Shown one piece after another: positions 1,682 to 19,784 of a stretch of DNA of 33,318 bases. Position 1 is the first letter of the stretch. Every line of letters starts with the position of its first letter. This DNA comes from a virus. The position numbers were made by a program, and so were the translations under genes. The stretch lies in the IMG/VR virus record IMGVR_UViG_3300046411_000147, positions 1 to 33,318 of that record, one strand, 5' to 3'. The notes under the pieces were generated by a model. That model ran no database searches, was not told the origin of the DNA, and saw only the letters and a program-made list of their open reading frames with translations.

Positions 1682-4600
1682 TTAATTCAATAGAGTTCCT
1701 GAGTTATTGTATACGTTAATTCTGTAGTGTGTACCTTCTTGGCCATCTAACGTTGCGGCATTTAGACCACTACCATTTGAGTCAACTGTTTGTATTAGTG
1801 CCATTACATGATTTGCATTTAGTCCAAACTGACCACCAGAACTATCGTAAGTTAATCCTGCTTGACCAGTAGATAAATTATCTCTTGCAATCTTAATTAT
1901 GTCTGCAGAGTCTACATTTAAATTACCAACTGATAATGTACCAGATATATCTGCATTACCCGTGACACCTATACCAGTTGAAGTTGCATGGAGAATATTT
2001 CCAGTACCATTTAAGTGTAAAGCAAAAGTACCATCACCTTGAACTCGATTATACCAAATATTACTACCATTGTCAATTCTAAGTTGATAATCAGAATCAG
2101 TTGATATTTCAGTTCTTCTATTAAAGGTAGCACCAGCACCAAAGGTTGCATTACCTCTATCAGACATATCTAATGTCAATGCAGTAAATGTAGTGCCATC
2201 ACTAACACCTCTAAATTTAATATCATCATCTGAAATTACAGCATCTATATGTACAGCACCGGTGGCGTCGCCAAAGTTTGCAAACTGAGTACCACCATTG
2301 CTTAATTTAATATCTCCACCATCTGCATCAAGTGTTATATCACCACCTACATCTACAGTAAGGTTTCCTGCATGGATTAAATTACCACCAAGAGTTATTT
2401 GGTCGCTGAATATTGCCGCACCACCTGCAGACATATCAAGAGTAAGTGCATTAATCCCAGAACCACCATCATTACCTCTAAATATTATGTCCTTATCTTG
2501 TACAGCAGATTTTATTTGTAAATCAGAACTAGAATTTTCTATAACACCAATTTCTGTACCACCATCTTTAAATCTTATATCTCCACCATCAGCATCAAGG
2601 ATAATATCTCCTGCAACATCTAATGTTAAGTCACCACTAGATAAATCTATTTCTGTGCCATCTATCGTGATATCATCTACTTGTAATGCATTTGTGTTTA
2701 TTGAACTAGAAGCAAGATTACCTATTGTGGCCGAGTCTGCAGTCGCAGTCGTACTTGCCATAAGTCCAGTGACAGAGACACCAGTTGTGGTTGTTTCTAA
2801 CCTTTTAACATTATCTTCATATAATTCTACCGAACTATTGTCTCCCATGACAATATAGTTTTCATCGTGTGTTCCATTTTGAAGTGCAAAAGTATCTGCA
2901 CCAATATATAATCCACCCGTACCCGTATGTGTAAATTTAGTATTGTTTCCGTCATGTCTTATGTTTGCATCACCACCAGTTCCAAATTTTATAAAATGCT
3001 TATCACCGAATGTTAATGCTTTTTCAGACTTATCGTAAACTACTGCACCCGCAGAGTCAAGAGTTAAATCACCACCAACTGTTAACCCAGTAAGAGTACC
3101 AACACTTGTAATATTAGACTGTGCGGCACCTGTAACAGTAGCGGCAGTTCCTGATACATTACCAGTTACATTACCTGTAACATTACCTTCTAGAGTATCA
3201 AGTTTTAATGTACCTAAACTGTAAGAAGCATCTGCTTCATTAATACTACCACTTGGGTTTGAATCGTATTCATCTATTAGTTTCCATTTATCATCTGAAA
3301 CATCATAGTAAATACCAACATAAGTAAATCCTACACCTGAAGAACCAGTGTTTCTGTTTGAGAAGAAACCAGTATCGACATTAATTGGTCCAGCAGTACC
3401 TGCCCATCTTGCGCCCGAATCGTGACCCGTAGTTGATGCAAAGTTGATTGAAATGTTATCAGTTGAATGAATCATCTGAGCAGAACCAGTAATTGGTTGC
3501 TTAGTTAATACTGGTGAAGAGAATGTACTATCTGCGGCAAATGCTACTTCAAATGTATCTACGCCACCTGCACCTGTACCAACACCATCAATTCTAACAT
3601 AATAGTTTTGATTCGCAGTACCAGTAAAGAATCCTGAATAGAAGGCATCATCTAATCCTGTACCCGAAAAAGTTGTTCCTGCCTCACCGATTGCATTACC
3701 TTCATTCAATCTGAACATTGGTGTACCAGCAGTTAAGTCTGCAGACGATACAGAGGTTGTTGACCCTAGAACTGTTAAGTTTCCGTCAATCTGTAAATTA
3801 CTTCCTATGTGACCCGAAGTCACAACTCTTAATGAGTCAATTGTGTGTGCTTGTCTGTTAAGTAAAATTACACCCGTTGAAGCATTCGAACTTACACACC
3901 AACCTAAACATATTGGATAGTTTGGATATAGTGGTGTAGAATTTGATAATAAACCAGAACCTAGACCAACAAAGACTTTTTGACCTGCAGTTAAACCAGA
4001 AGTATCTAGTCCTGATAACTGACCAGAAGTCTGAATATATCCATACGAATTATTTGGTATTGCTACTGCAGTTAAACCTTGTGCATTGTATTTTGCAGTA
4101 TCAGTTGCATCTGCAAGTGCTACTGTTGGTACATCTACTGCACCGCCCGTGTAGTTACCAGAGAAGTATACTGGTTTACCTTTTGTGATTGTTGCACCAC
4201 TATTGTTATAAACTCTTTGATGTTCTTCAATACCTACTTCGTGAACTAAACCACTAACGTCACTATAGAAACCTATCGTTTTATTACTATCATCGTAGAA
4301 AAGTCTACCTTCTTTATGTGCAGGTACGTTTGTAACACCTGTTAATAATTCTAGTTGAGTTGCATTTACTGAATCTGCTTGTAATACACCTGTAGTTCTT
4401 AAGTTACCTATATCTGCAGAATCTATTGTTGCCTGACTCGCAGTAAGTTGTGTATTCGCTAAATTTGTAACTGTCGCAGAATCTACAAATAAATTATCGG
4501 TATTGATACTAGTCGATGCTATATTTGTTACTGTAGCAGAGTCACTTGTAATTGTACCTGAGTGTAATTTATTTGTTGCGGCAGAATCAAAAGTAGCATC

Positions 4601-7192
4601 TTTACCAGTCAATTGAGTTGTGACTGCTACATTTTTAAGTGTTGCCGAATCTGCAGTTAAGTCGCCAGCATGAAGCACGTTAGCGGCCGCAGAATCAAAT
4701 GAAGCATTGTCAATTGTTAATTGACTACTCGCTATATTTGTAACAGTTGCGGAATCACCTGTAATTACTTTAGCAGTTAATACAGAGTTTGCAATATTTG
4801 TTATTGTCGCACTATCACCAAAAGCAGAATCAAAGTTAATAAACTCAGTTGAAAATTGTCTGATATCAGAACTGTCTGCATTTAAAGTATTAATCGTTGC
4901 ACTATCAGATGTAATCTGTGAAGATGTAAACTGTGTATTTGCTAAATTTATAATTGTTGCAGAATCAATTGTTACTGCACTTGCATGTATTGTATTGTGA
5001 GCAGAACTATCAAAAGTTGCATTATCAACAGTTAATTGAGTACTTGCTAAATTTGTAATTGTTGCAGAATCATTCGCACTAGACTTATCTAATAATTGAT
5101 GCCATGCACCAGCATGAGCAAAGTAACCTTTACCTGTTCCATGTACGTGAGCAAACATTCCATGATGCGAATTTGCATCTGGTAAATCTCCTTCTGAACC
5201 AAAGACGTTAGCATAGTAAAGTTTACCTGTTGTAACTAAATCATTATTACCTAAAGCAATGCCACCAATCGTTGCAGAATCAATGAAGGCACTATCTGCA
5301 TTTATAAATTCTGTACTAAATTGTCGTATGTCAGAACTATCTGCATTAATTGTATTAATTGTGGCACTATCTGCCGTAACTTGCGATAAAGTTATTTGTG
5401 TTGTTGCTAAATTACCTATCGTTGCAGAATCTATATTTGCACTTGTACCTGTAATTGCCTTCGCAGTTAAAACTGAGTTTGCAATGTTTGTAATAGTTGC
5501 ACTATCTCCAACTTGACTTGTATTTGTAATTGCTTTTGCAGTAAGAACAGAATTTGCTATGTTTGTAATTGTTGCCGAATCTGTAAATAACTGGTCAACA
5601 TTTACGTTTGTACTTGCTATGTTTGTTATAGTCGCAGAGTCACCAGTTGCACTATCAAAGTTTATATTCTCAGTAGAGAAATGGTCTATGTCTGCACTAT
5701 CTACGTTTAATTTTGTAATAGTTGCACTATCTAAAGTTGCTTGACTTCCTGTTAACTGTGTATTAGCAATGTTCGTTATAGTTGCCGAGTCACCAGAAGA
5801 CATTGAAAAATTAGCGGCAGATAAATTTGTAACATGAGCAGAGTCTATGTTTGCATTTGCAACAGTTAACTGTGTAGTTGCTATATTCGTTATGGTCGCA
5901 GAATCACCAAATGCCGAGTCAAAGTTTATGAATTCTGTACTTATCTGTCTAACGTCTGAACTATCTACGTTTAAAGTATTAATGGTAGCAGAGTCTACAG
6001 TTATTTGACTTGCAGTTAATTGTGTGTTTGCTAGATTTGTGATTGTTGCACTATCACCGAATGCCGAATCAAAATTAATAAATTCAGTTGACAACTGCCT
6101 AATATCTGAACTGTCTGCATTTAAGTTGGTAATAGTAGCAGAATCAATTGTTGCTTGACTACCAGTAAACTGAGTGTTTGCTATGTTCGTAAATGTGGCA
6201 CTATCACCAGATGATGCTAACATATTGGTAATCGATAGATTACCTATTGTTGCAGAATCTATGTTTGCATTAGCACCAGTAATTAAGTTTGTACTTGTAA
6301 CGTTTACAGATGTTGTATTATTTGCAGTAATTGTATTAGCAGTATGTGTTGTTGATGCTAAACTAGTAATTGTACCTGAATCACCAACTAGTTGACCACC
6401 ACGAATTAAACCAAGTGTATAAAATGTTTCTGAAACAATTGTCCATCTATCATTTGTTTCGTCCCAGACAAATAGTTTATTATCAGAGTCACCACGTTCA
6501 ATTGCAATACCACCAGTTTCTGTTGGAACACCTGTAGCATTAGAGTTAATTCGAATTATATTATCTGCTAGATTAATTTCTTCTGTGTTAACAGTCGTTG
6601 TTGTACCTTGAACAGTTAAATCACCAGCAATTATAACGTTTTTATGAAATGTTTCATTTTCGTCTGTTCTTGCTATGTCTGAATCATTAAAAGTAAAAGT
6701 TGAAGTATTACTATCGTATGCAAGAATATCTGTATCACCATTTACTGTGATAAATTTTGGATTAGTTAATACTGTTCCACCATCACTATCTCTAACAACA
6801 AAGTTTCCATTTTCATCTTTAACTTTAAGAGAACCGATATTGATTGTTCCGCCACTTAAAAATAAGTCTTTCCATTTCTTTGTAGCAGACCCTAAATCTT
6901 GAGCAGAATCTAATCTTGGTACTAAATTACCAGAGATAGAATCGTTTGTAAAATTAATTTTAAATGAATCTGGAGAACCACTACTATCGTAAGTGACAAA
7001 CATATTACTGTCGCCCGTAAACTGAGCAACTTCGTAATTACCAGATGAAAGATTAAATGCTAGTATGGTACCCGATGCTTGTCCTGTAGTTGTAACACCA
7101 CCCAAGTTATTAATACCAAAACTACCAGCAGTTACAGTTTTTATCGGAGTACCGACTACTACTTTTTTTAACGTAATCTTATTTACTGCCAT
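1682..7192 (-). CDS. Giant repetitive tail-fibre protein (1836 residues)
   Basis: This is a very long beta-rich fibre protein with no enzymatic motif. The N-terminal about 260 residues form a module I recognise from marine phage fibres (GDLTVQGTTTTVNT, NLADNIIRINSN, then ETGGIAIERGDSDN and VWDETNDRW). Residues about 300-940 are a degenerate array built around DSATITN, NIANTQLT and STEFINFDSAFGDSA. This is interrupted near 660-705 by a His/Gly segment (HGMFAHVHGTGKGYFAHAG). The C-terminal third has further spike-like modules, including a tandem pair of roughly 75-residue units with LDADGGDI and ALTLDMS, and ends LDGQEGTHYR...SGTLLN. The gene starts 8 nt after a small adaptor-like gene, with AGGA as a possible ribosome site. 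Probable role is the long tail fibre; receptor and chaperone are unknown. Confidence 0.8.
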   Translation of the reverse strand: MAVNKITLKKVVVGTPIKTVTAGSFGINNLGGVTTTGQASGTILAFNLSSGNYEVAQFTGDSNMFVTYDSSGSPDSFKINFTNDSISGNLVPRLDSAQDLGSATKKWKDLFLSGGTINIGSLKVKDENGNFVVRDSDGGTVLTNPKFITVNGDTDILAYDSNTSTFTFNDSDIARTDENETFHKNVIIAGDLTVQGTTTTVNTEEINLADNIIRINSNATGVPTETGGIAIERGDSDNKLFVWDETNDRWTIVSETFYTLGLIRGGQLVGDSGTITSLASTTHTANTITANNTTSVNVTSTNLITGANANIDSATIGNLSITNMLASSGDSATFTNIANTQFTGSQATIDSATITNLNADSSDIRQLSTEFINFDSAFGDSATITNLANTQLTASQITVDSATINTLNVDSSDVRQISTEFINFDSAFGDSATITNIATTQLTVANANIDSAHVTNLSAANFSMSSGDSATITNIANTQLTGSQATLDSATITKLNVDSADIDHFSTENINFDSATGDSATITNIASTNVNVDQLFTDSATITNIANSVLTAKAITNTSQVGDSATITNIANSVLTAKAITGTSANIDSATIGNLATTQITLSQVTADSATINTINADSSDIRQFSTEFINADSAFIDSATIGGIALGNNDLVTTGKLYYANVFGSEGDLPDANSHHGMFAHVHGTGKGYFAHAGAWHQLLDKSSANDSATITNLASTQLTVDNATFDSSAHNTIHASAVTIDSATIINLANTQFTSSQITSDSATINTLNADSSDIRQFSTEFINFDSAFGDSATITNIANSVLTAKVITGDSATVTNIASSQLTIDNASFDSAAANVLHAGDLTADSATLKNVAVTTQLTGKDATFDSAATNKLHSGTITSDSATVTNIASTSINTDNLFVDSATVTNLANTQLTASQATIDSADIGNLRTTGVLQADSVNATQLELLTGVTNVPAHKEGRLFYDDSNKTIGFYSDVSGLVHEVGIEEHQRVYNNSGATITKGKPVYFSGNYTGGAVDVPTVALADATDTAKYNAQGLTAVAIPNNSYGYIQTSGQLSGLDTSGLTAGQKVFVGLGSGLLSNSTPLYPNYPICLGWCVSSNASTGVILLNRQAHTIDSLRVVTSGHIGSNLQIDGNLTVLGSTTSVSSADLTAGTPMFRLNEGNAIGEAGTTFSGTGLDDAFYSGFFTGTANQNYYVRIDGVGTGAGGVDTFEVAFAADSTFSSPVLTKQPITGSAQMIHSTDNISINFASTTGHDSGARWAGTAGPINVDTGFFSNRNTGSSGVGFTYVGIYYDVSDDKWKLIDEYDSNPSGSINEADASYSLGTLKLDTLEGNVTGNVTGNVSGTAATVTGAAQSNITSVGTLTGLTVGGDLTLDSAGAVVYDKSEKALTFGDKHFIKFGTGGDANIRHDGNNTKFTHTGTGGLYIGADTFALQNGTHDENYIVMGDNSSVELYEDNVKRLETTTTGVSVTGLMASTTATADSATIGNLASSSINTNALQVDDITIDGTEIDLSSGDLTLDVAGDIILDADGGDIRFKDGGTEIGVIENSSSDLQIKSAVQDKDIIFRGNDGGSGINALTLDMSAGGAAIFSDQITLGGNLIHAGNLTVDVGGDITLDADGGDIKLSNGGTQFANFGDATGAVHIDAVISDDDIKFRGVSDGTTFTALTLDMSDRGNATFGAGATFNRRTEISTDSDYQLRIDNGSNIWYNRVQGDGTFALHLNGTGNILHATSTGIGVTGNADISGTLSVGNLNVDSADIIKIARDNLSTGQAGLTYDSSGGQFGLNANHVMALIQTVDSNGSGLNAATLDGQEGTHYRINVYNNSGTLLN
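4370..6290 (-). repeat. Degenerate DSAT-type amino-acid repeat array in the giant fibre gene
   Basis: More than 20 copies of DSAT (mostly DSATITN or DSATIGN) occur within about 640 residues, alternating with linkers such as NIANTQLTASQ, NLNADSSDIRQ and STEFINFDSAFG. The STE-F/N-IN unit occurs five times. DNA repeats are imperfect: the Ser in DSAT is written TCT, TCC or AGT in neighbouring copies, so the array is conserved at protein level more than at DNA level. The boundaries are approximate. Confidence 0.8.
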
Positions 7193-7645: not shown

Positions 7646-8314
7646 TTATTTAGATTTTATTTCTTCGATTACATCTTCTTGTAAACCAAGAGACATTTCT
7701 TCTCTATTAAAGACATAAGATACTGTTATGCGCCAGCAGTCAGTAGATGCAGTATGATAGACTAATTTATATGCTGGTTCTATGTATGCTCCAAAATAAC
7801 TTGCTTTACATTGCCAACCAGGTTTATCTTTAATAACAATCTCTTCTTTTGTTTCACCGTCAATATATTTAAAATATCCATTACCAGTTTCAGACCAAGT
7901 GAAAATCAAATTATATGCACTTGCATTTGCATTGTTATGCCAACTTATAAATCCACCAGGTGGGTACATAACACATAAAGCATTATGTTTAGTACACAAT
8001 TTTTCTTGCAATTCTGTATTAACTATGTTATACTGTTGTATTATCTCTTTTGGTAAATCTTTACCACGATTGCCATCTGCTTTAAAATTGTAGTAATATC
8101 CACTTTCTGGATATCCATCATGATTTCTACCCATGTTGATAATAGTGTTTTTATGTGAATCTCCAACAAAATGATTTCTATGCTTACTTCTGCCACCCAC
8201 TTTCCAATCTTTGTTGTTTCTATTCTCATAAAACCACAAAAAATTATTTAATGAATTTAAAACATCTGTGTTGTTTATAGGTATATCAAGCATATGATTT
8301 ATCTTTTTGTGCAT
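7646..8314 (-). CDS. 2OG-Fe(II) oxygenase-like protein
   Basis: This 222-residue protein resembles the 2-oxoglutarate/Fe(II)-dependent oxygenases common in marine T4-like phages. Visible hallmarks are YPPGGFISWHNNAN at residues 117-130, supplying His126 and Asn128 where the classical motif is HxD, the strand NLIFTWSETGNGYFKYID, and YHTASTDCWRITVSYVF with His187 as distal metal ligand and Arg195 placed for 2OG binding. Asn in place of Asp is a variation on the facial triad, so catalysis is not certain. The start is ambiguous: ATG at 8314 overlaps the glycosyltransferase gene by 29 nt, while ATG at 8293 (residue 8) gives a tight ATGCTTGA overlap and may be the true start. Substrate unknown; its neighbours suggest modification of a virion protein or surface sugar. 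Confidence 0.68.
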   Translation of the reverse strand: MHKKINHMLDIPINNTDVLNSLNNFLWFYENRNNKDWKVGGRSKHRNHFVGDSHKNTIINMGRNHDGYPESGYYYNFKADGNRGKDLPKEIIQQYNIVNTELQEKLCTKHNALCVMYPPGGFISWHNNANASAYNLIFTWSETGNGYFKYIDGETKEEIVIKDKPGWQCKASYFGAYIEPAYKLVYHTASTDCWRITVSYVFNREEMSLGLQEDVIEEIKSK

Positions 8315-9020
8315 ATGAAGAATAATGTCTTATCACAACAGGGTCTTTTGGAAAAGCATTAAAATATCTTTCATAATGTGGAAAATAATTCCAACGTAAA
8401 TTATCTTTAAAACTATCAACTTTTATGTTTTTGTATTTATCAACTTTATTCAACAAATACCATAATGTAGTTTGGTCAAAATCCCATAACTCTTGCCATG
8501 GATCCATAGGTAAAATTAATTCTTTAGAATATTGTTTTCGAAACAAGTCATTCCAATCATTCATAAAATCTTTAACAAGTGGATTTCTCATATCATAAAG
8601 ACAAACACCACCACAATAAGTATAATATTCTCTTACATTTTCGTATGTAAAAGAAGTAATTGCATAAACTTTTTTGTATTTTTCATCTAGTTTATGAAAC
8701 ATCATATCATTATTATTAAGTTCATCAAATACAGTTGCAATATCTTCGTGTTCTATTTCACTATCTGCATCAATATACATTGTAATGTCGTAAGGAGAGT
8801 TTGCCATGCCCCATAGTTTGGCACGATAATGGTCATCGCAGAAAATTAAATCATCTGCAATATCTTCACGTCCATCTAGAAATTTTTCTTCTGTAACTAA
8901 GCAACACTTTGCATCAGGATAGTAATCTTTGATTGATTCGATGCAATTGATTGCTAGTGAATAAAAATTAGGTTTTCTTGATGCTACTACTAAGTATCCT
9001 TTACTCGGTTTCTTTATCAT
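8286..9020 (-). CDS. GT-A type glycosyltransferase
   Basis: This 244-residue protein looks like a small nucleotide-sugar glycosyltransferase. It opens with a beta strand GYLVVASRKPNFY, followed by an alpha/beta pattern leading to MYIDADSEI at residues 81-89. The DAD at 84-86 fits the metal- and nucleotide-binding DxD motif of GT-A enzymes. Later segments (YYTYCGGVCLYDMRN, then WDFDQTTLWYLLN) resemble the acceptor side of GT8-like enzymes. It has no signal peptide or membrane segment, so it should act in the cytoplasm. The gene overlaps the upstream helical gene by 20 nt and the downstream oxygenase-like gene, so the two enzymes are probably co-translated. A fibre or another virion protein is a plausible acceptor by position, but that is inference. 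Confidence 0.72.
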   Translation of the reverse strand: MIKKPSKGYLVVASRKPNFYSLAINCIESIKDYYPDAKCCLVTEEKFLDGREDIADDLIFCDDHYRAKLWGMANSPYDITMYIDADSEIEHEDIATVFDELNNNDMMFHKLDEKYKKVYAITSFTYENVREYYTYCGGVCLYDMRNPLVKDFMNDWNDLFRKQYSKELILPMDPWQELWDFDQTTLWYLLNKVDKYKNIKVDSFKDNLRWNYFPHYERYFNAFPKDPVVIRHYSSYAQKDKSYA

Positions 9021-9444
9021 TCTCTAACTTATCTTGTATTATCATAATTGCATACAAGTTAACTTCTGGAATAGATTTTGCTCGTCTTAACCTACTTTTA
9101 AGAATTCTATTTTTTGATTCTTTTATGTCTTCTACTTCAAAAGTTTCAAGTTTATAATTAAAAAGTTGCTCTAATCTTTCTGCTTTTCTTTTGTTTATTT
9201 CAAGTTGTCTTTGTTGTTCTTGTTCTTTAAATTTTCTATTGACTCTTTCATCTGTATTTTTATCAATAAATTCTTTTGTTAACTCTTCTACACATTCATC
9301 AAACAAAGGGTCACCACGTTTTAACTTGTGAACTTGACGAACATCTTTAAAACCTTCTTTGTGTTCAGATATACAATTCAATAACTCTTTACTCGGTGTT
9401 TCCCAAAAAGCATCTTTTATCCAAGTTCTTTTAACATCTGCCAT
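9001..9444 (-). CDS. Charged helical protein of unknown function
   Basis: This 147-residue protein is not recognised. The middle (about residues 68-95) is very rich in Glu, Gln, Lys and Arg and should be a long helix or coiled coil (FKEQEQQRQLEINKRKAERL). A second charged segment around 105-125 has KESKNRILKSRLRRAK. The N-terminus has two Trp and an FWETPSKELLN segment. It starts after the 45-nt gap behind the tetrapeptide-repeat gene, with a strong GAAGGAG ribosome site at about 9453-9459, and ends inside the glycosyltransferase gene. A scaffold, chaperone or partner for the neighbouring enzymes or fibres would fit, but nothing in the sequence proves it. Confidence 0.65.
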   Translation of the reverse strand: MADVKRTWIKDAFWETPSKELLNCISEHKEGFKDVRQVHKLKRGDPLFDECVEELTKEFIDKNTDERVNRKFKEQEQQRQLEINKRKAERLEQLFNYKLETFEVEDIKESKNRILKSRLRRAKSIPEVNLYAIMIIQDKLENDKETE

Positions 9445-9489: not shown

Positions 9490-10872
9490 TCAAGCAGTTC
9501 TTACATATAGTGTATATGTTTCAATAGTTTCTGTCGCATTGTTAATTAATGCACCAAGAAAATTACCAGTAAACGTTGTTGTAAAATTTGTTGAAAAATC
9601 ACCAGTAAATGTTTGTGTAAAATCTTGTGTAAATGTACCAACAAAGTCTTGTGTAAAGTTATTTGCAAAGTTACCTGTAAAATCACCCACAAAATCTCCT
9701 GTAAAATCACCTACAAAGTTAGTTGTCGAGTTACGTGTAAAATCACCCACAAAATTAGTTGTTGAGTTACGTGTATAATTCAAAGAATTATAATTTGCAT
9801 TAATATCAAATGCTCCTGTTTCTAAACTAGGATTTCTACCAAGAAAATCACCTGTAAAATCACCAGTAAACGTTGATGCAAAATTACCTGTAAAATCACC
9901 AGTAAATGTTGTAGTTGAGTTACGTGTGAAGTTTTGAGTTGAGTTACGTGTAAATGTATTAGTAAAGTCACCAGTAAATGTTGTTTCAAAGTTACCAGTA
10001 AAATTACCAACAAAGTCTTGAGTAAAATTACCACCAAAGTCACCAACAAAATCTTGTGTATAATCTGTATTTGTTGTAGTGTTTTTAGTATCAACTGCGG
10101 CACCTTTTGCAACCCATGTGCCAGTATCAGTCGGCGCACCTTGAGTAGCACTTTTGATTAAGTATGTCCCTACACCAAGACTACCATTCATGATTCTTGT
10201 TTTTGCTCTTTGTCCAAACGTGTATTTGATTTCTGCATCTGACATTTCTTGAATACCTTGAAATGTTCCTGAACCACCACTACTTCTTTTTAATGCTACA
10301 GGTCTGATAGCAGTTGGTGCCGTCATTGCAGTTCTACGATAAAGATTGTATGTATTTACTGTTTCTGCATTACCACTTGAATTTACTTTAGTATCTGTAA
10401 ATAGTCCTGCAATCTTTTCTGTATAATCGCCACTCGGTGCAGACGTGGCAAGTTTGTACGTACCGGGATAATCGTTTGCAAATATTACTAAATTTAATCT
10501 ATCAACTAAAGCAGAAACTTCTGCATCTGTCATTTCGTGAAGTTCTGCACCACTATTACTGACAAACTCAATAGGATATCTAAAGTCACCACCATCTTCT
10601 GCGGCAGTACCTTCTGATTGATAAAGAGTTGTTGCAGTTGATGAAGTTGTTAAAGTTCCGTGTGACCCAATTGCTTCATTGAATCGAGTATCAGTAAAAG
10701 TACCGACTGTTGCTGGACTACCAGAACTTGCAGTTTTTAAACACCCAGGGTCTGTGTCTGCGGCAGTACTTAATTGTAGACCTGCTTGATAGGCAAAGTA
10801 TTGTTCTTCGGTAGTAGTGACTTGTTTTAAGTCACCATTTGTTCCTTCTAGTTTTAGTGATACATCGCCCAT
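9490..10872 (-). CDS. Tetrapeptide (F-T-G-D) repeat virion protein
   Basis: This 460-residue protein has a non-repetitive N-terminal part (about 1-268) and a repetitive C-terminal part. In the repeats an aromatic residue (F or Y, sometimes S) comes every fourth position, giving units such as FTGD, FVGD, FTGN, FTQD and FTRN. Residues 271-346 hold 19 units and residues 366-441 hold another 19, separated by a 19-residue non-repeat linker and out of phase with each other. The C-terminal ETYTLYVRTA echoes an internal NTYNLYRRTA at about 173-182. The N-terminal part repeats an EMTDAEV/EMSDAEI motif (113-119 and 209-215). The regular period suggests a compact beta-solenoid or stacked fibre shaft. 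It lies among fibre genes, downstream of a late-promoter box, with no Shine-Dalgarno sequence. Function is unknown. Confidence 0.75.
   Translation of the reverse strand: MGDVSLKLEGTNGDLKQVTTTEEQYFAYQAGLQLSTAADTDPGCLKTASSGSPATVGTFTDTRFNEAIGSHGTLTTSSTATTLYQSEGTAAEDGGDFRYPIEFVSNSGAELHEMTDAEVSALVDRLNLVIFANDYPGTYKLATSAPSGDYTEKIAGLFTDTKVNSSGNAETVNTYNLYRRTAMTAPTAIRPVALKRSSGGSGTFQGIQEMSDAEIKYTFGQRAKTRIMNGSLGVGTYLIKSATQGAPTDTGTWVAKGAAVDTKNTTTNTDYTQDFVGDFGGNFTQDFVGNFTGNFETTFTGDFTNTFTRNSTQNFTRNSTTTFTGDFTGNFASTFTGDFTGDFLGRNPSLETGAFDINANYNSLNYTRNSTTNFVGDFTRNSTTNFVGDFTGDFVGDFTGNFANNFTQDFVGTFTQDFTQTFTGDFSTNFTTTFTGNFLGALINNATETIETYTLYVRTA
9550..9777 (-). repeat. Tetrapeptide repeat block 2 (19 units, 12-bp period)
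   Basis: Codons 366-441 encode 19 consecutive four-residue units of the F-T-G-D type, for example repeated YTRN/STTN/FVGD sets. At DNA level this is an imperfect 12-bp periodicity that leaves other frames open, which explains several spurious ORFs here. Confidence 0.85.
9835..10062 (-). repeat. Tetrapeptide repeat block 1 (19 units, 12-bp period)
   Basis: Codons 271-346 encode 19 four-residue units with F, Y or S in the first position and mostly D or N in the fourth. Each fourth residue from Tyr271 to Phe343 fits. The block ends at DFLGR before the linker that separates it from block 2. Confidence 0.85.
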
Positions 10873-11219: not shown

Positions 11220-12905
11220 TTAATACATTTTCCATGCCATTATTCTTGCAAAACAATAAGTATGGCCTGGATATCCAGCATTAGCATACCTATATCTAAT
11301 TGTTTCATTTGAATAAAATCTTATTGCATAATAACCTGCTCCAGAGAGAATACCTTCTGCTTTAAAGATAGACGTACTCCAGTCTCCAATTGCATTTGCA
11401 GAACCGACAACATATTGACCATTTAAGTTAGTACTTTTTCCTATCCACATAGAACAATTATCTGCAGTATCACTTGCCACTCTTGCTAGTGTACACCATG
11501 CAGAAACCCAATAAGTACCAGACCCTATATAAATATAATTACCACTGTGACTAGTACCATTTGCACCTGCCCTAATAACAGTTGCAGTTGGGTGAGTAGT
11601 ACCACCACTAGGTGTCAAAGAAACAGAAAATGCACTACCACTTATTCTATCTTCTTTCCAAACATCTGGTGCCCTATTTGCATAAGTACTATTAGAAGTT
11701 GAAAGATAACCTACTGTAGAATTATTATATTGTTGAGCAAATACTTGTGTAAAAGTAGGAGTGGCAGAAATACCTACAGAAAAACTTGAACTACCACCCT
11801 GATTCGCAGTAAATGAAGCAGAACCAGTTAAGTTTGTTCCAGTAGACATACTAAGTGTACCATTTCCTACAGACGAAGATGTAATGTAATTAGCACCATT
11901 TGCCAACTGATTATTATTTGTGATATCATTGTTAAGTGTAATTGTAGTATTACCAGATTGATTTGCAGTAAAAGTACCACTTCCTGATATGTTAGTGCCA
12001 CCTTGAACTGTAAGTGTACCATTATTGATTACTGCCTCGGAACTTGCAGTACCAGTAACATGGCCATTCGCATCAATTGTTAAATCTTGAATAAAAGTAT
12101 TGCCAGAATTATTTACTGAACTTGCGCCAGTAACATCGTGGTCTATTTGTATTTTATTACCACCAATCCCAAGAGTTTTTAATGAACTACCACCAAGAAC
12201 TGACAAAGTATCATTCGCACTATCTACTGTAACACTAATTGAACCAGAACCACTATCTGTTGCAATATTTCTAAATACTGCAAGTGCATTTAATGATGCT
12301 TTGTTTTCATTAATTGCATCAACAAGATTTTTTGCAGTAGTATTTAAATTTGTATGCGGTCTTGCACCAATATCAGAATCAAGTTCGTTGATTGCACCAC
12401 GAAGAGTGGTTGCAGTTGTTGTCATTCTCGCTTCTCGATTTATATCTGAATCAAGTCTTTGAATATCTTGTGAAATAGCATTTAAGGCAGATACTACTGT
12501 CACTTGTTCAGCAACATCAAATCCACCACGCCTAGTGTCACTATCTCCACCAGCACTATCTAAACCAGATAAACTACCAAGAAGTTGACTAACATTTGTA
12601 TTTAATTTGTTTATGCTTACTGCAAAATTAGAGTCACGAATATCACTTGCTAGTGTCGATAACTGTCCTAAGTCTGAATCTAGTTCATTGATTGCATTTA
12701 CTATACTAGTCTTATTCGTAGTTGTCAAACTTGTTTTCGCACCCATGTTGCTATCAAGTTCGTTAATTGCACCTACTATATCAGAATCTACCGTTGTTGT
12801 CAACTTACCAGTTGCACCTACATCAAGTGACTGATTATTCATATTATCAACTAACTGAGTAAAGTTATCAGTTGTTGATGTTTTAATTGATGTATTTCTG
12901 CCCAT
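11220..12905 (-). CDS. Tail-fibre protein with variable tip (paralogue of the neighbouring fibre)
   Basis: This 561-residue fibre shares its stalk with the fibre gene just upstream. The shared N-terminus includes TTDNFTQ, LTTTVDSDIVGAINELDS (residues 35-52) and several later INELDSD units that should form trimeric coiled-coil segments. A second shared region runs from about 205 to 290 (TVDSAN, DHDVTGA, VNNSGNTFIQDLTIDANGHVT). After residue 290 the two differ: this one continues through Gly/Thr/Ser beta repeats to a tip of about 150 residues with NYIYIGSGTYWVSAWC, GYYAIRFYSNETIRYRYAN and a Cys near the end. The tip is probably the receptor-binding part, of a type I do not recognise. The ATG is 5 nt from a TATAAATA box and lacks a Shine-Dalgarno sequence. 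Confidence 0.78.
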   Translation of the reverse strand: MGRNTSIKTSTTDNFTQLVDNMNNQSLDVGATGKLTTTVDSDIVGAINELDSNMGAKTSLTTTNKTSIVNAINELDSDLGQLSTLASDIRDSNFAVSINKLNTNVSQLLGSLSGLDSAGGDSDTRRGGFDVAEQVTVVSALNAISQDIQRLDSDINREARMTTTATTLRGAINELDSDIGARPHTNLNTTAKNLVDAINENKASLNALAVFRNIATDSGSGSISVTVDSANDTLSVLGGSSLKTLGIGGNKIQIDHDVTGASSVNNSGNTFIQDLTIDANGHVTGTASSEAVINNGTLTVQGGTNISGSGTFTANQSGNTTITLNNDITNNNQLANGANYITSSSVGNGTLSMSTGTNLTGSASFTANQGGSSSFSVGISATPTFTQVFAQQYNNSTVGYLSTSNSTYANRAPDVWKEDRISGSAFSVSLTPSGGTTHPTATVIRAGANGTSHSGNYIYIGSGTYWVSAWCTLARVASDTADNCSMWIGKSTNLNGQYVVGSANAIGDWSTSIFKAEGILSGAGYYAIRFYSNETIRYRYANAGYPGHTYCFARIMAWKMY

Positions 12906-12920: not shown

Positions 12921-14333
12921 CTACGCGGTTCTTCTCCACATATATACAACTATATACGGTTGTAAATTGTTGTGAGCAGAACCACTACCTGTACTTGATG
13001 TTGTTTCTTCGGAACTGTTTAAAAGTACGTTATTACTCCCTTGGACAATAGGCGGCCCTCCTATTGAAGAACTATAACTACGACCTGTTTTTACTGTATG
13101 AGTGTGAGTGTGAGAAGGTAATTCTGATACTGTTAGTGTATGTGTTTTTGAACCACCCGTTTCGTTTAAAGTATCAAATTCAGTATCAGAAACGCTTTGA
13201 CTTACTAATACTCTACCTTCTCCATATCGAGACCAAGTTCCAAAACCCATTAAAGTTGCTGGACTTGTAGAAACACCCGCATTGATATAAATTGAACCCA
13301 CTGGATAAATCACGGAGAAAACTGCAGTTAAAGTTGTTTTTGCAGTATCTAATGCATTTAGTTGGGTTTGTAGTCCCGAAGAGTCAAAACTAATCGCATT
13401 AAATTGAGTTTGTATCGCAGAAGTCACTCCATTTAAGTGACCAAACTCAGTATTCGATACTGTTCCGTCATGAATTTTTTCTGCATTAATCGCCGCACCT
13501 GCAGATACATCGGTATTTGTAATAGCAACTGCACCACTTGAAACTGCAGTAACATGTCCCGCAGAATCCATAGTGACATCTTGAACAAATGTATTACCAC
13601 TATTATTAACATCTGTTGCACCAACTACTGTATGGTCAACAAGTAATCTATTACCTGACATAGTGGTTTGAATAATACCGTCTCCAACAATTGCGATTGA
13701 ACCATTTGCACTATCAACCGTGTCACTTCCAGTATCACCACTTATTGTTTGATATCTAAAGACATTACCAATATCTGTTTTCAATTGTGTAACTGCAGAA
13801 TCATGGTTTGAGTCAAGTGCATTTATTGCCCTTCTTATAGTCATACCAGTGAATCCAGAATCTAATGCAGAATCACCTATTTCTGCATCTAATTCATTTA
13901 TACCACCAACAATATTTTTAGATGTTGTTGTAAGTGTAGTTTTTGCACGAGAAGAACCTACGTCAGAATCTAATGTTCTAACATCTGCAGATAAAGAGTT
14001 TAATGCACCACCAACAGTGGTTCGTTCTGCACTATCATTAAAACCACCAAGTTTGTTTGCACTATCTGGTGTTAATCCGACTAATGAGGCATTACCAGCA
14101 GTATGTATTTCATTTATGGCCGCGGTTATATTCTTTGTGTTTGTATTTAAATTAGTATGAGGTCTGGCACCAATGTCTGAGTCTAACTCATTAATCGCAC
14201 CAACTAAATCAGAATCAACTGTAGTTGTTAATCTTGCAAGACCACCAACTTCTTTACCAATTGTGTTTGTATTATTAATAAACTGTGTAAAGTTATCAGT
14301 AGTAAGAGTTTTTGTAAAATTACTATCAGTCAT
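12921..14333 (-). CDS. Tail-collar-domain fibre, short-tail-fibre-like tip
   Basis: This 470-residue fibre has the same repeated stalk as its downstream paralogue (DNFTQ, LTTTVDSDLVGAINELDSDIG at residues 35-55, further INELD units) and the shared VNNSGNTFVQDVTMDSAGHVT block at 242-262. The tip (about 341-470) is a recognisable phage tail-collar type domain: YPVGSIYINAG, GFGTWSRYGEGRVLV, TGGSKTHTLTVSELPSHTHTHT and the ending AHNNLQPYIVVYMWRRTA. His408, His410 and His412 form the His-x-His cluster that binds metal in T4 gp12-like trimeric tips. It is probably a short tail fibre or adhesin. Its start overlaps the 71-residue gene by 8 nt (ATGACTGA). Confidence 0.8.
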   Translation of the reverse strand: MTDSNFTKTLTTDNFTQFINNTNTIGKEVGGLARLTTTVDSDLVGAINELDSDIGARPHTNLNTNTKNITAAINEIHTAGNASLVGLTPDSANKLGGFNDSAERTTVGGALNSLSADVRTLDSDVGSSRAKTTLTTTSKNIVGGINELDAEIGDSALDSGFTGMTIRRAINALDSNHDSAVTQLKTDIGNVFRYQTISGDTGSDTVDSANGSIAIVGDGIIQTTMSGNRLLVDHTVVGATDVNNSGNTFVQDVTMDSAGHVTAVSSGAVAITNTDVSAGAAINAEKIHDGTVSNTEFGHLNGVTSAIQTQFNAISFDSSGLQTQLNALDTAKTTLTAVFSVIYPVGSIYINAGVSTSPATLMGFGTWSRYGEGRVLVSQSVSDTEFDTLNETGGSKTHTLTVSELPSHTHTHTVKTGRSYSSSIGGPPIVQGSNNVLLNSSEETTSSTGSGSAHNNLQPYIVVYMWRRTA

Positions 14334-17500: not shown

Positions 17501-19784
17501 CCTGACCCGAAATAAGTTGTAATGTTCCATCAGTACTTGCAACAACTCTATCTGCTCTTGGTAAATAGTATTCAATATCTGTATTTACAATGTCACCTGT
17601 TGAAGGTAAATCGTGAGTATGAGTAAATGCACCTGCAGACGAACCACTATCAGATGCTTTTATACCTCTAAAGTCAACTACGTCTCTTAAATTTACAATT
17701 GTTCTTTGGTCTGGTCTGTAATCAGGAATGTCTTCATATTCTACTTGACCAGTATATGAATTTACTGAGAAGAAGTCACCTGTTGCACCATGTGTAAAGT
17801 GTTTGTATTTAACATAAACATTACCACTTGGTGCAGTTGCACTTGATTTTAAAATAATTCTACCAGTTTGATAAAATGCTGGTCTTTGTCCATTATCTAA
17901 ATCAAAGTTTGCACTTATATCAGCACCACTTGAACTACCATCTTTTATTTCTTCAATTGTGTAAATGTCTGGGTGGTCTAGTTTTACATAAACTAATTGT
18001 CCTGCAGTTCCATCAGCAATACCATTTGTAATAGGCGCTCTAGTGACAGTTGATTCTGCAAGTGTTTTTGTTCTTGATGAACCATTGCTTTTGTTTACTT
18101 TTGCATAAATTGTGTGTGCTCCATCTGGCAATGCAGAAATAGTTAATGACTGTGACCCTACTGACCCAAAAGTTGGATTAGCAACTCTGTCACCACTTGA
18201 ATCTGTAGTAACAATCCAATCAGCAGTATTTACAAAAGTCTCTCCACTTAATGCAGTTAACGTAACAGTTCCTGAACTTACTGTACCAGCGAAGACTCTC
18301 TGTACCTCAAAGTTAATATCAGATAAAGTTTTTGGCCTTACTCTAGGTGTAGGGAATACTATTGCACTATTATTACCTTCTTTTAATACTGCTTGAGAAC
18401 CTGTCAGTAATATTTTCAAAAAGTCTGTCGTGCCTGTACCAATTGTTCTTGTGCTTCTAAAGTTTTCTCCAGAGTTCATTTTTATATCGTAAAGATATGC
18501 TCTGAAATTAGCACCATCTTTTGTTATTGAACGAACTCTTACGGTACCAATAATACTAGCACCTGGATTAGTTGTTGATGTTGATAAATTTACTCGTGAA
18601 CCATCAACAGGAATAAGACCTTCAATAGTATCACAAGTAACAAATGAACCATAATTTACACCAACAGTTTCATTATTAATTGTAGTTGTTGTTCTTGGTT
18701 TTGGTACAACAAGTTTTGTTGGTTTTTCTTTATTGCAACGATATCCATTTATGTATGCAGTTCCTGAAGATACGTTTGCAATTAAATTTGTAGATGCTCC
18801 TGCCGAATCTGCTTCTAAACTCAATCTAAATGGATTAACAATGTAATTACCTGACTCTTCTCTTGTTCTCAAAGCAAGAACATCACCTATTTTATTATAG
18901 TCATCTGTACCTGTTACTTGTTCTACTATCTCACCAGCAACTACGTCACAATAGAAAACAAAGTTTTGTGTTCCTGTAACATCTGAACTTCTTGTAAGTG
19001 TTAAATTAATTCTATATCGGTCTGCACCTGGGGCAGTGGTATTTGGTACTGCACCTTGATTATCATACAATGCGGCATCGTCTGCAAACGTGACTATATC
19101 TTCTGTAACTACAAAACCAACTACTTCTGTTGGAAACTTAGAATACTTTCTTAATAAAATAGATTGGTTTTTAGCAAAAACAAAATGTCCTCTTACAAAG
19201 AAATCACCAGCACCATTACTGACTAATGTACCTTGTCCTGTTGACGGGTTAGCAGTAGTGTTTGTTGACTGAACTGTTAGAGTTGTTGCACCAGAAGTAA
19301 TGTTTTCTCCTGGAGTAAATCTTACAGGTGTAGTACCTGATAAATTACTAGGACTTTCGGTATATTGCACAAAAAGAGTTGCAGGGTCACCAGTTGCCGA
19401 TACACTTGCAGATAATTCTGCTAAAGAAGTGTCTGTAACTGCTTGTGCAACTCGAACAACTCGTGCTTTAATACTTGATGTAGCACCAGTAAATTCTAAT
19501 CCAACAAGTGAAGTAACTTGGTCATCTGTAATAGTGCTTGATAATTTAACAAATTCATATGAGTTATCAATTGTTGGACCACCAGGGTTAACTGCGGCAC
19601 CATCTTTAAATACATGTCTACCAAGTCTTGCAAGTTCTTCTTGAGTTATAGTTTGTGCTTGTGTAAGTTCTCTTGCTTGGACTGCCCTACCAGAATTGAA
19701 TAATATTCTATGATAATTATCACTATCTGCGAAGTCATCTTTATAGGTAACTCCGAATGTATTTTTAGTAAATGTTGTTGCCAT
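14541..19784 (-). CDS. Giant DUF4815 baseplate/tail structural protein (1747 residues)
   Basis: The N-terminus carries the pattern I associate with DUF4815 phage proteins: NYHRILFNSGRAVQARELTQ at residues 23-42, then a QEELARLGRHVFKDGAAVNPGG segment ending near 70. The following about 1650 residues are mostly beta-rich modules, including a GLRPATRYYPFFDGVSF segment and QSFRVTAPNGMFITKVQCYF, both common in large marine phage baseplate or fibre proteins. The C-terminal region (DLRVIAVST end) looks compact. In the T4 layout this place holds the large wedge and pin genes gp7 to gp10, so it may take over some of their roles. It begins 4 nt after gp8 and ends on the start codon of the small coiled-coil gene. 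No enzymatic motif is visible. Confidence 0.8.
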   Translation of the reverse strand: MATTFTKNTFGVTYKDDFADSDNYHRILFNSGRAVQARELTQAQTITQEELARLGRHVFKDGAAVNPGGPTIDNSYEFVKLSSTITDDQVTSLVGLEFTGATSSIKARVVRVAQAVTDTSLAELSASVSATGDPATLFVQYTESPSNLSGTTPVRFTPGENITSGATTLTVQSTNTTANPSTGQGTLVSNGAGDFFVRGHFVFAKNQSILLRKYSKFPTEVVGFVVTEDIVTFADDAALYDNQGAVPNTTAPGADRYRINLTLTRSSDVTGTQNFVFYCDVVAGEIVEQVTGTDDYNKIGDVLALRTREESGNYIVNPFRLSLEADSAGASTNLIANVSSGTAYINGYRCNKEKPTKLVVPKPRTTTTINNETVGVNYGSFVTCDTIEGLIPVDGSRVNLSTSTTNPGASIIGTVRVRSITKDGANFRAYLYDIKMNSGENFRSTRTIGTGTTDFLKILLTGSQAVLKEGNNSAIVFPTPRVRPKTLSDINFEVQRVFAGTVSSGTVTLTALSGETFVNTADWIVTTDSSGDRVANPTFGSVGSQSLTISALPDGAHTIYAKVNKSNGSSRTKTLAESTVTRAPITNGIADGTAGQLVYVKLDHPDIYTIEEIKDGSSSGADISANFDLDNGQRPAFYQTGRIILKSSATAPSGNVYVKYKHFTHGATGDFFSVNSYTGQVEYEDIPDYRPDQRTIVNLRDVVDFRGIKASDSGSSAGAFTHTHDLPSTGDIVNTDIEYYLPRADRVVASTDGTLQLISGQAGFARQLPPVPENTLNLFEVNMNGYGISDSDASVKTLKYKRFRMQDIARLEERIDGLEETTALSFLEAQTENLLITDSGGTARTKSGFLVDNFNDRGLSDAQDPDYRASVDPSTNTLHPHVSTQNIPLIYDSGKSTNTILKGDNVYLTHTETDAIVQTQISGTENINPFAVISNEGQIRLSPASDTWTDTKYDPAKVVNQEATIDIGDVNGQGNQNAQALRMIWNSVRLNGIVGGVGNLDTTPWFGNWVWNWAGIETATTTSVTERFTSQQSQNLGGGGALLRTTETFSQRQVVGSGTINEIIGDRTVSLTFIPFMRPRLVFFRAEGLRPATRYYPFFDGVSFDNFVKAETFKDVSGQEYRGNQYQNLNAHPNTSSTLVTDASGKVEGSFLIPSSDTNKFRVGEREFKLLDISVDDEPSSTSVASAIFTAKGTLDTRQETIRSTRLTVTATRRWDTVTWHDPLAQSFRVTAPNGMFITKVQCYFATKDDAIPVQLQIRPMVNGHPSSSQIFPGSSVFVNPGSVNTATGTQANALAAPTDFVFDEPIFLNADTEYAVVLLSDCTSYNAYVGRTYEFELGSTEKRINKQPSMGSLFKSQNGTTWEPDQTQDLAFKISKAQFTTAGGTATFENASVPKQKLINNPILTTASSKVINVLMPDHGLHVNDTVMIEGVSITNGQNGIDSSGTLNQGSLHAKHTVTAVDGNGFQFNAPQSGNASASGYIGGDNVTCTKNIEFDIVVPTMDTLLPEDTTFNLGAKFTTGKSLAGSETRFSKDDNFSNDIRLGDENFFDAPRMIAHDSDEDVELGVGTGHGNKSVELRATIDTIRADVSPVIDTQRCSLTTIHNRIDKQASGATTGFNVPLFFTAETEPQGGSHISKHITRPITLLEDGVNLKVIFNSRRPAEADFEVYFRTANEGVNIHEEPYTLMPLESPVGADESNFLEYRYNAHPNEIEAFNQYQIKIVFRSTNSSKPPLFKDLRVIAVST

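Follow-up and report, generated by a model that had tools for sequence, protein, structure and literature searches.

Mirror-paired tetrapeptide blocks suggest a very long antiparallel beta-hairpin in a putative phage fiber protein

Introduction

What kind of fold keeps two blocks of a tetrapeptide repeat at exactly the same length? The question is raised by a 460-aa protein encoded on the minus strand (9490-10872) of virus record IMGVR_UViG_3300046411_000147, which we analyzed as a single window of 33,318 nucleotides. The usual interpretations of a protein repeat are a solenoid, a coiled coil or a disordered spacer. Here we propose that this putative phage fiber is very probably one very long antiparallel beta-hairpin, whose tip is formed by a loop or globular domain.

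Results

The array is made of two blocks of 19 tetrapeptide units (Table 1), in which F, Y or S occupies every fourth position from residue 271 to 343 and again from 366 to 438, on either side of a linker of 19 residues; these counts, first given in a preliminary description of the gene, are exact. Position 1 holds F in 16, S in 2 and Y in 1 of the 19 units of each block, position 2 is T/V/A, position 3 is Gly in 10/19 units of block 1 and 9/19 of block 2, and position 4 is D/N in 14/19 and 15/19, respectively. The original label of a strict F-T-G-D repeat is accordingly right for the aromatic/Ser phase and overstated for the whole motif. In 20,000 shuffles of the array region, the longest F/Y/S run was 11 units, compared with 19 in the real sequence. 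Codons within the repeat are mixed (GGT/GGA, TTT/TTC, AAT/AAC), and the similarity of block 1 to block 2 is 0.46 in register and 0.34-0.58 at other shifts. Because codons vary and aligning the blocks in register brings no gain in similarity over other shifts, the equal blocks do not reflect a recent tandem duplication, and this origin was dropped.

Table 1. Coordinates of the array gene, its parts and the three genes that follow it in the window
Feature	Coordinates	Strand	Length or residues	Basis
Gene of the putative tetrapeptide hairpin-fiber protein	9490..10872	(-)	460 aa	
N-terminal modules A, B and C (module C predicted to be completed by the C-terminal strand)	10063..10872	(-)	residues 1-270	AF2; module shuffles
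Block 1, proposed outgoing arm	9835..10062	(-)	19 tetrapeptides, residues 271-346	repeat count; mirror pairing
Linker at the proposed tip, NPSLETGAFDINANYNSLN	9778..9834	(-)	residues 347-365	repeat count; phase-break listing
Block 2, proposed returning arm	9550..9777	(-)	19 tetrapeptides, residues 366-441	repeat count; mirror pairing
C-terminal strand ...ETIETYTLYVRTA, predicted strand 2 of the module C hairpin	9493..9549	(-)		pLDDT 92-97 (441-460); kept in relatives
Protein that is chaperone-like by size and position only	9001..9444	(-)	147 aa	follows array gene in 50/53 testable loci
Probable GT-A glycosyltransferase (GT)	8286..9020	(-)	244 aa	invariant DxD; follows in 45/47 testable loci
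Possible iron/2OG-type oxygenase	7646..8314	(-)	222 aa	invariant WHNN...YH...R; follows in 37/37 testable loci

As first supposed, the protein matches no named repeat family: it hits no Pfam family and no PHROG profile (tail-fiber families included) at E 0.1, a PDB sequence search returned chance matches only, and six larger relatives or paralogues gave nothing above chance level in Pfam and PHROGs. Among 50,697 annotated phage records, a homologue was found only in Phage C48C1 (Kyanoviridae), while uncultivated virus contigs yielded relatives on 21 contigs with the whole-protein query and on 199 with an N-terminal profile; the same profile found none in 84,980 prokaryote genomes. A prokaryote scan with the oxygenase-like protein recovered one Sphingobacteriales MAG contig (L266/L267, JAAXIF010000028.1), which carries the array gene, the downstream cassette and T4-like structural genes and is most likely a misbinned phage. 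Matches of a giant array to the S-RIM2 "structural protein" involve a different, TGN-rich region (GNVTGNVTGDLTGN) and were rejected. Five loci (L012, L014, L018, L019, L021) hold two array genes in tandem, each with an ETYTLYVR-like end strand, the upstream copy having different or longer N-terminal modules. In the L034/L035 arrays, NYAGPT hexapeptides make up the outgoing arm and NYLGEASGAV decapeptides the returning one, and nearly identical stretches of tetrapeptides (YTQDFVGTFETTFTG / YEQDFVGTFETTFTG) lie on either flank.

Common to the relatives are ~270 N-terminal residues and a short C-terminal strand, typically ETYTLYVR-A. In alignments with them, the window protein carries the family N-module ending GTW..KGTATDTR, and the strand [ED]TYTLYVR lies within its residues 448-460. 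The N-terminal region comprises three modules, of which B and C resemble each other (0/1000 shuffles as good), as do A and B (1/1000); A-C alone is not significant. An AlphaFold2 (AF2) monomer model built with 43 relatives reached pLDDT of ~82-98 for residues 1-270 and 92-97 for 441-460, and left the array at low confidence (31-49). It predicts a strand-turn-strand in each module (54-64/76-85 in A, 150-163/169-180 in B, 253-280/429-458 in C), and in the module C hairpin strand 253-280 lies opposite strand 429-458, with the array in between. In this model the array thus interrupts the predicted module C beta-hairpin at its tip, so that both array ends would sit side by side and the chain would have to go out and return. 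A disordered prediction, which the preliminary description had named as evidence against a new repeat fold, therefore applies in part: the modules and the hairpin base are modeled confidently and the array is not. A single-sequence AF2 model was useless (pLDDT 33), with strands broken at G-N/G-D, and Foldseek searches against PDB and BFVD, both handicapped by the unmodeled array, returned no significant structural match.

To list phase breaks we used a small HMM of tetrapeptide units trained on 81 distinct arrays, in which ~80% of array residues are in phase. The break patterns read alike from both ends: 75/19/76 in the window family, 263/8/265 (L124), 56/2/228/7/228/2/56 (L123), 23/3/415/8/416/3/24 (L138) and 23/3/246/1/14/8/13/2/247/3/24 (L135), with the longest equal arms, of 724 and 723 residues, in L089. 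Of the 555 breaks in 68 non-redundant arrays, 214 are mirrored to within 3 residues; shuffling the segments gives 89 ± 12 (maximum 118) and placing breaks at random 65 ± 9 (maximum 90; 500 trials each). Arrays whose inserts are one-sided or whose break lengths are uneven (L061, L024) score zero in this raw test and so entered the count as failures. At the middle of the array, relatives have either a short loop or a globular domain of ~100-165 residues, and the linker may vanish. The idea that equal unit numbers betray a length-controlled fold is borne out by these mirrored breaks and by arms that stay equal at the greatest lengths found. Freely varying unit numbers, which had been named as evidence to the contrary, are seen in part: units range from a few to hundreds, but the equality of the way out and the way back is kept in many relatives.

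Facing residues carry a pairing signal of their own. Their mutual information peaks at the mirror register and drops sharply away from it: for position 1 against position 1, compared antiparallel at the unit level, z is ~125 with zero shift, drops to 54 and 33 when the arms are displaced by a single unit in either direction and is at most 8.4 at farther shifts, whereas parallel controls give z of at most 4; single arrays reach z up to 29. In the pairing table, whose absolute enrichments are slightly optimistic owing to per-array offsets of -1 to -3 residues, position 1 is enriched (observed/expected) in Y:Y (491/314), F:R (144/44), R:F (202/64) and F:S (60/22) and depleted in F:F (27/92) and R:R (0/31), while position 3 is enriched in G:R (241/159), R:G (275/182), R:S (89/34) and S:R (108/41) and depleted in G:G (63/194) and R:R (58/150). 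The choice of offsets leaves the sharp shift peak, the parallel control and the held-out test unaffected. For the latter, each table came from half of the arrays, and any array used to train one table was scored with the other; of all registers, the best lay no more than 6 residues from the base-anchored register in 35/66 arrays, where ~4.7 were expected. Short length, one-sided inserts or a different repeat dialect mark many of the 31/66 arrays in which the base-anchored register was not best. Complementarity of this kind, with Gly opposite non-Gly and R never opposite R at position 1, cannot be produced by DNA copying.

The window protein was left out of the pairing table, and its clade has nearly all Phe at position 1, so that Gly/non-Gly at position 3 carries its pairing test. 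In the mirror register, where unit i faces unit 19-i, 17/18 facing pairs at position 3 are Gly:non-Gly (P = 64/400,000, 1.6e-4), and the registers next to it stay at chance level. In the same register, the two closest relatives that carry a different linker show 16/18 (L030) and 17/18 (L032). The register read from the residues, i+j = 709, is matched independently by the AF2 strand limits, which give 709-711. A close relative with 36 units and no linker (L029) is an exception, with 10/17 base-anchored and 13/16 at another register. Across the family, the primary sequences point very strongly to antiparallel pairing of the two arms.

As the preliminary description had proposed, the array gene of this marine phage sits among fiber and tail genes. 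Upstream lie fiber genes at 12921-14333 (Gp10 C-terminal domain) and 11220-12905 and a small gene; downstream follow the 147-aa protein, the GT, the 222-aa protein and then an L-shaped-fiber-assembly family protein. This gene order suggests that the window protein is a virion fiber presenting a tip. The DxD of the GT is invariant in 22 members, 12 of which give a weak Pfam GT2 match (best 0.0019). In the oxygenase-like protein, H-N-N, H and R are invariant, H-x-N thereby replacing the H-x-D of 2OG-Fe(II) oxygenases; the protein has no match in Pfam, NCBIfam or PDB families, and PF13640 has no match in the window. The genes that follow the array were scored at loci whose contigs reach far enough beyond it (Table 1). 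In the reverse direction, an array ORF lies upstream in 73/74 GT loci and 73/76 oxygenase-like loci, counted among the closest 80 of about 300 reciprocal loci, which overlap with the first locus set. Among the misses are L115/L201, with a diverged array member, L260, with a different aromatic repeat, and L264, which has the enzymes and no array. Only C48C1, out of the 50,697 phage records, has each of the three genes (array, GT and oxygenase-like). The linkage between array and cassette is therefore strong across the loci examined, rather than proven for whole families.

L260:1-4755 encodes a 1,584-aa ORF in an aromatic repeat dialect (YEGDFILDIL, QDETNPTTNP) ahead of the chaperone-GT-oxygenase cassette. 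In the window itself, positions 1682-7192 (-) encode a 1,836-aa protein that repeats units of the DSATITN(I/L)A type. Its gene takes the place that SWTG_00067 has in S-RIM2 and adjoins the genes of the head-tail adaptor Ad2 (893-1666) and of the head closure protein Hc2 (17-889). Phage C48C1 (OQ984149.1) has oxygenase-like paralogues at 18267-18920 and 40130-40804, one beside a tail-tube gene and one between DnaB-helicase and NifU-like genes.

Discussion

The repeat, its insertion point in the model, the mirror symmetry, the pairing code and the gene linkage are computational results; from them we infer that the two arms, once paired, make up a real beta ribbon. In the proposed fiber, three N-terminal modules, each with its own hairpin, would form the base, and the loop of the module C hairpin would be expanded into the tetrapeptide array. 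Block 1 would leave the base and reach a tip, made of the 19-residue linker in the window protein and of a short loop or globular domain in relatives, and block 2 would return beside it in register, ending in the ETYTLYVR strand that closes module C. Along such a strand, one face would present large residues (F/Y/S/R) at position 1 in alternation with small or variable ones (G/R/T/S) at position 3, which would account for the period of four. Position 1 would face position 1 as Y:Y, F:R or F:S, and position 3 would set Gly against non-Gly (R, T, Q, A) or R against S, so that an aromatic pair (or aromatic-Arg/Ser) followed by a Gly:larger pair may balance the bulk across the ribbon at every step. 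A recognized stabilizing pattern in beta sheets, termed "aromatic rescue of glycine", has aromatic residues close to Gly. Any change of length on one arm would have to be matched on the other, hence the equal blocks. At 3.3 Å per residue, the textbook value for strand rise, the arms would be ~25 nm long here and ~240 nm in the largest relative.

The arms may pair between chains and not only within one, either as an antiparallel dimer or as a trimer of hairpins forming a six-stranded shaft, and we regard this as having slightly less than an even chance. Many known phage fibers are trimers, a lone two-stranded ribbon would leave its aromatic face exposed, and the mirror statistics fit pairing within a chain and between chains equally well. 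Yet both array ends are predicted to be anchored side by side in one module C hairpin, which makes an intramolecular core natural, and a trimer of hairpins is compatible with the single hairpin rather than opposed to it. In addition to the hairpin, we tentatively consider that the GT and the oxygenase-like protein glycosylate and hydroxylate the array, as happens in collagen. The constancy with which the array gene precedes both (45/47 and 37/37 loci, and 73/74 and 73/76 in reverse) speaks for such a role, but the enzyme identities rest on motifs, oxygenase-like paralogues sit beside other genes (tail-tube; DnaB helicase/NifU-like), and the enzymes also occur in L264, where an array is lacking.

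The fold first suggested for this gene, a pair of parallel shafts built as beta-solenoids or stacked turns with 19 units apiece, now appears highly improbable. The strict short period, the two equal blocks and the strand breaks at G-N/G-D in the single-sequence AF2 model (pLDDT 33) would suit such shafts, but they are absent from the model built with relatives, the pairing is antiparallel and mirror-registered with a nil parallel signal, and the linker lies at the array midpoint, where it may vanish or become a domain; the blocks behave instead like a single antiparallel hairpin, one block leading out and the other back. A low-complexity spacer that grew by slippage, with blocks equal by chance or tandem duplication, is hardly credible: array confidence in AF2 is low, unit numbers differ widely among relatives and the L071 blocks are alike when read in the same direction, but the window blocks lack in-register duplication, the complementarity (Gly against non-Gly, R never opposite R) goes beyond copying, and breaks are mirrored over >1,400 residues.

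The antiparallel hairpin would mean that two halves of one chain are complementary residue by residue over hundreds of positions, in a way visible from sequence alone. It makes a beta-strand pairing code directly testable and supplies a rule, taken from nature, by which very long hairpins could be designed, it would explain giant "hypothetical" genes of Kyanoviridae-like marine phages, and it marks the tip domains of array proteins as candidate host-recognition parts. Our literature searches found no description of such arrays, and we could not find an earlier account of mirror-paired hairpin arms as a fiber construction. We lean, with some reserve, toward a new class of virion fiber that joins a single-chain self-complementary hairpin of up to ~1,650 residues (~240 nm), a pairing code that fixes register, length and tip position, interchangeable tips, and dedicated glycosylating, perhaps hydroxylating enzymes.

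Comparison with known systems

Pentapeptide repeats, which form a quadrilateral beta-helix, share with the window protein a short strict period, aromatic or aliphatic residues in phase and a beta-rich character. They follow a five-residue A(D/N)LXX motif, whereas the window protein has a period of four, no Pfam match and mirror pairing instead of a solenoid. The repeat motif of T4 gp5 consists of VxGxxxxx octapeptides. This protein adopts a triple-stranded beta-helix fold (PMC4576200). Points shared with our protein are a place in the phage tail (putative for ours), a short repeat unit and a Gly two positions beyond a hydrophobic residue. In gp5, three chains are helically wound with a period of eight, while here the halves of one array are mirror-paired with a period of four, the arms run up to hundreds of residues and the PDB holds no sequence relative. 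Mycobacteriophage Tweety gp54 is likewise a phage protein with a variable number of tetrapeptide repeats, which have an invariant Ala-Ala and near-identical DNA (PMC2884959); its Ala-Ala occupies positions 1-2 with no aromatic phase, in contrast to F/Y/S followed by T/V/A in the window protein. Collagen, with its lysyl hydroxylases and glycosyltransferases, offers an analogy only, as a short-period fiber with possibly linked modifying enzymes; it is a triple helix of period three, and homology is not claimed. The closest counterpart is C48C1 CDS0201 (WJE88074.1, Kyanoviridae, 3,347 aa). Although it is annotated as hypothetical, has several globular inserts and finds its best mirror register away from the base-anchored one, its N-modules are 37% identical to those of the window protein, its C-terminus reads TETYTLYVRVA, and its hundreds of tetrapeptides are followed by the same genes.
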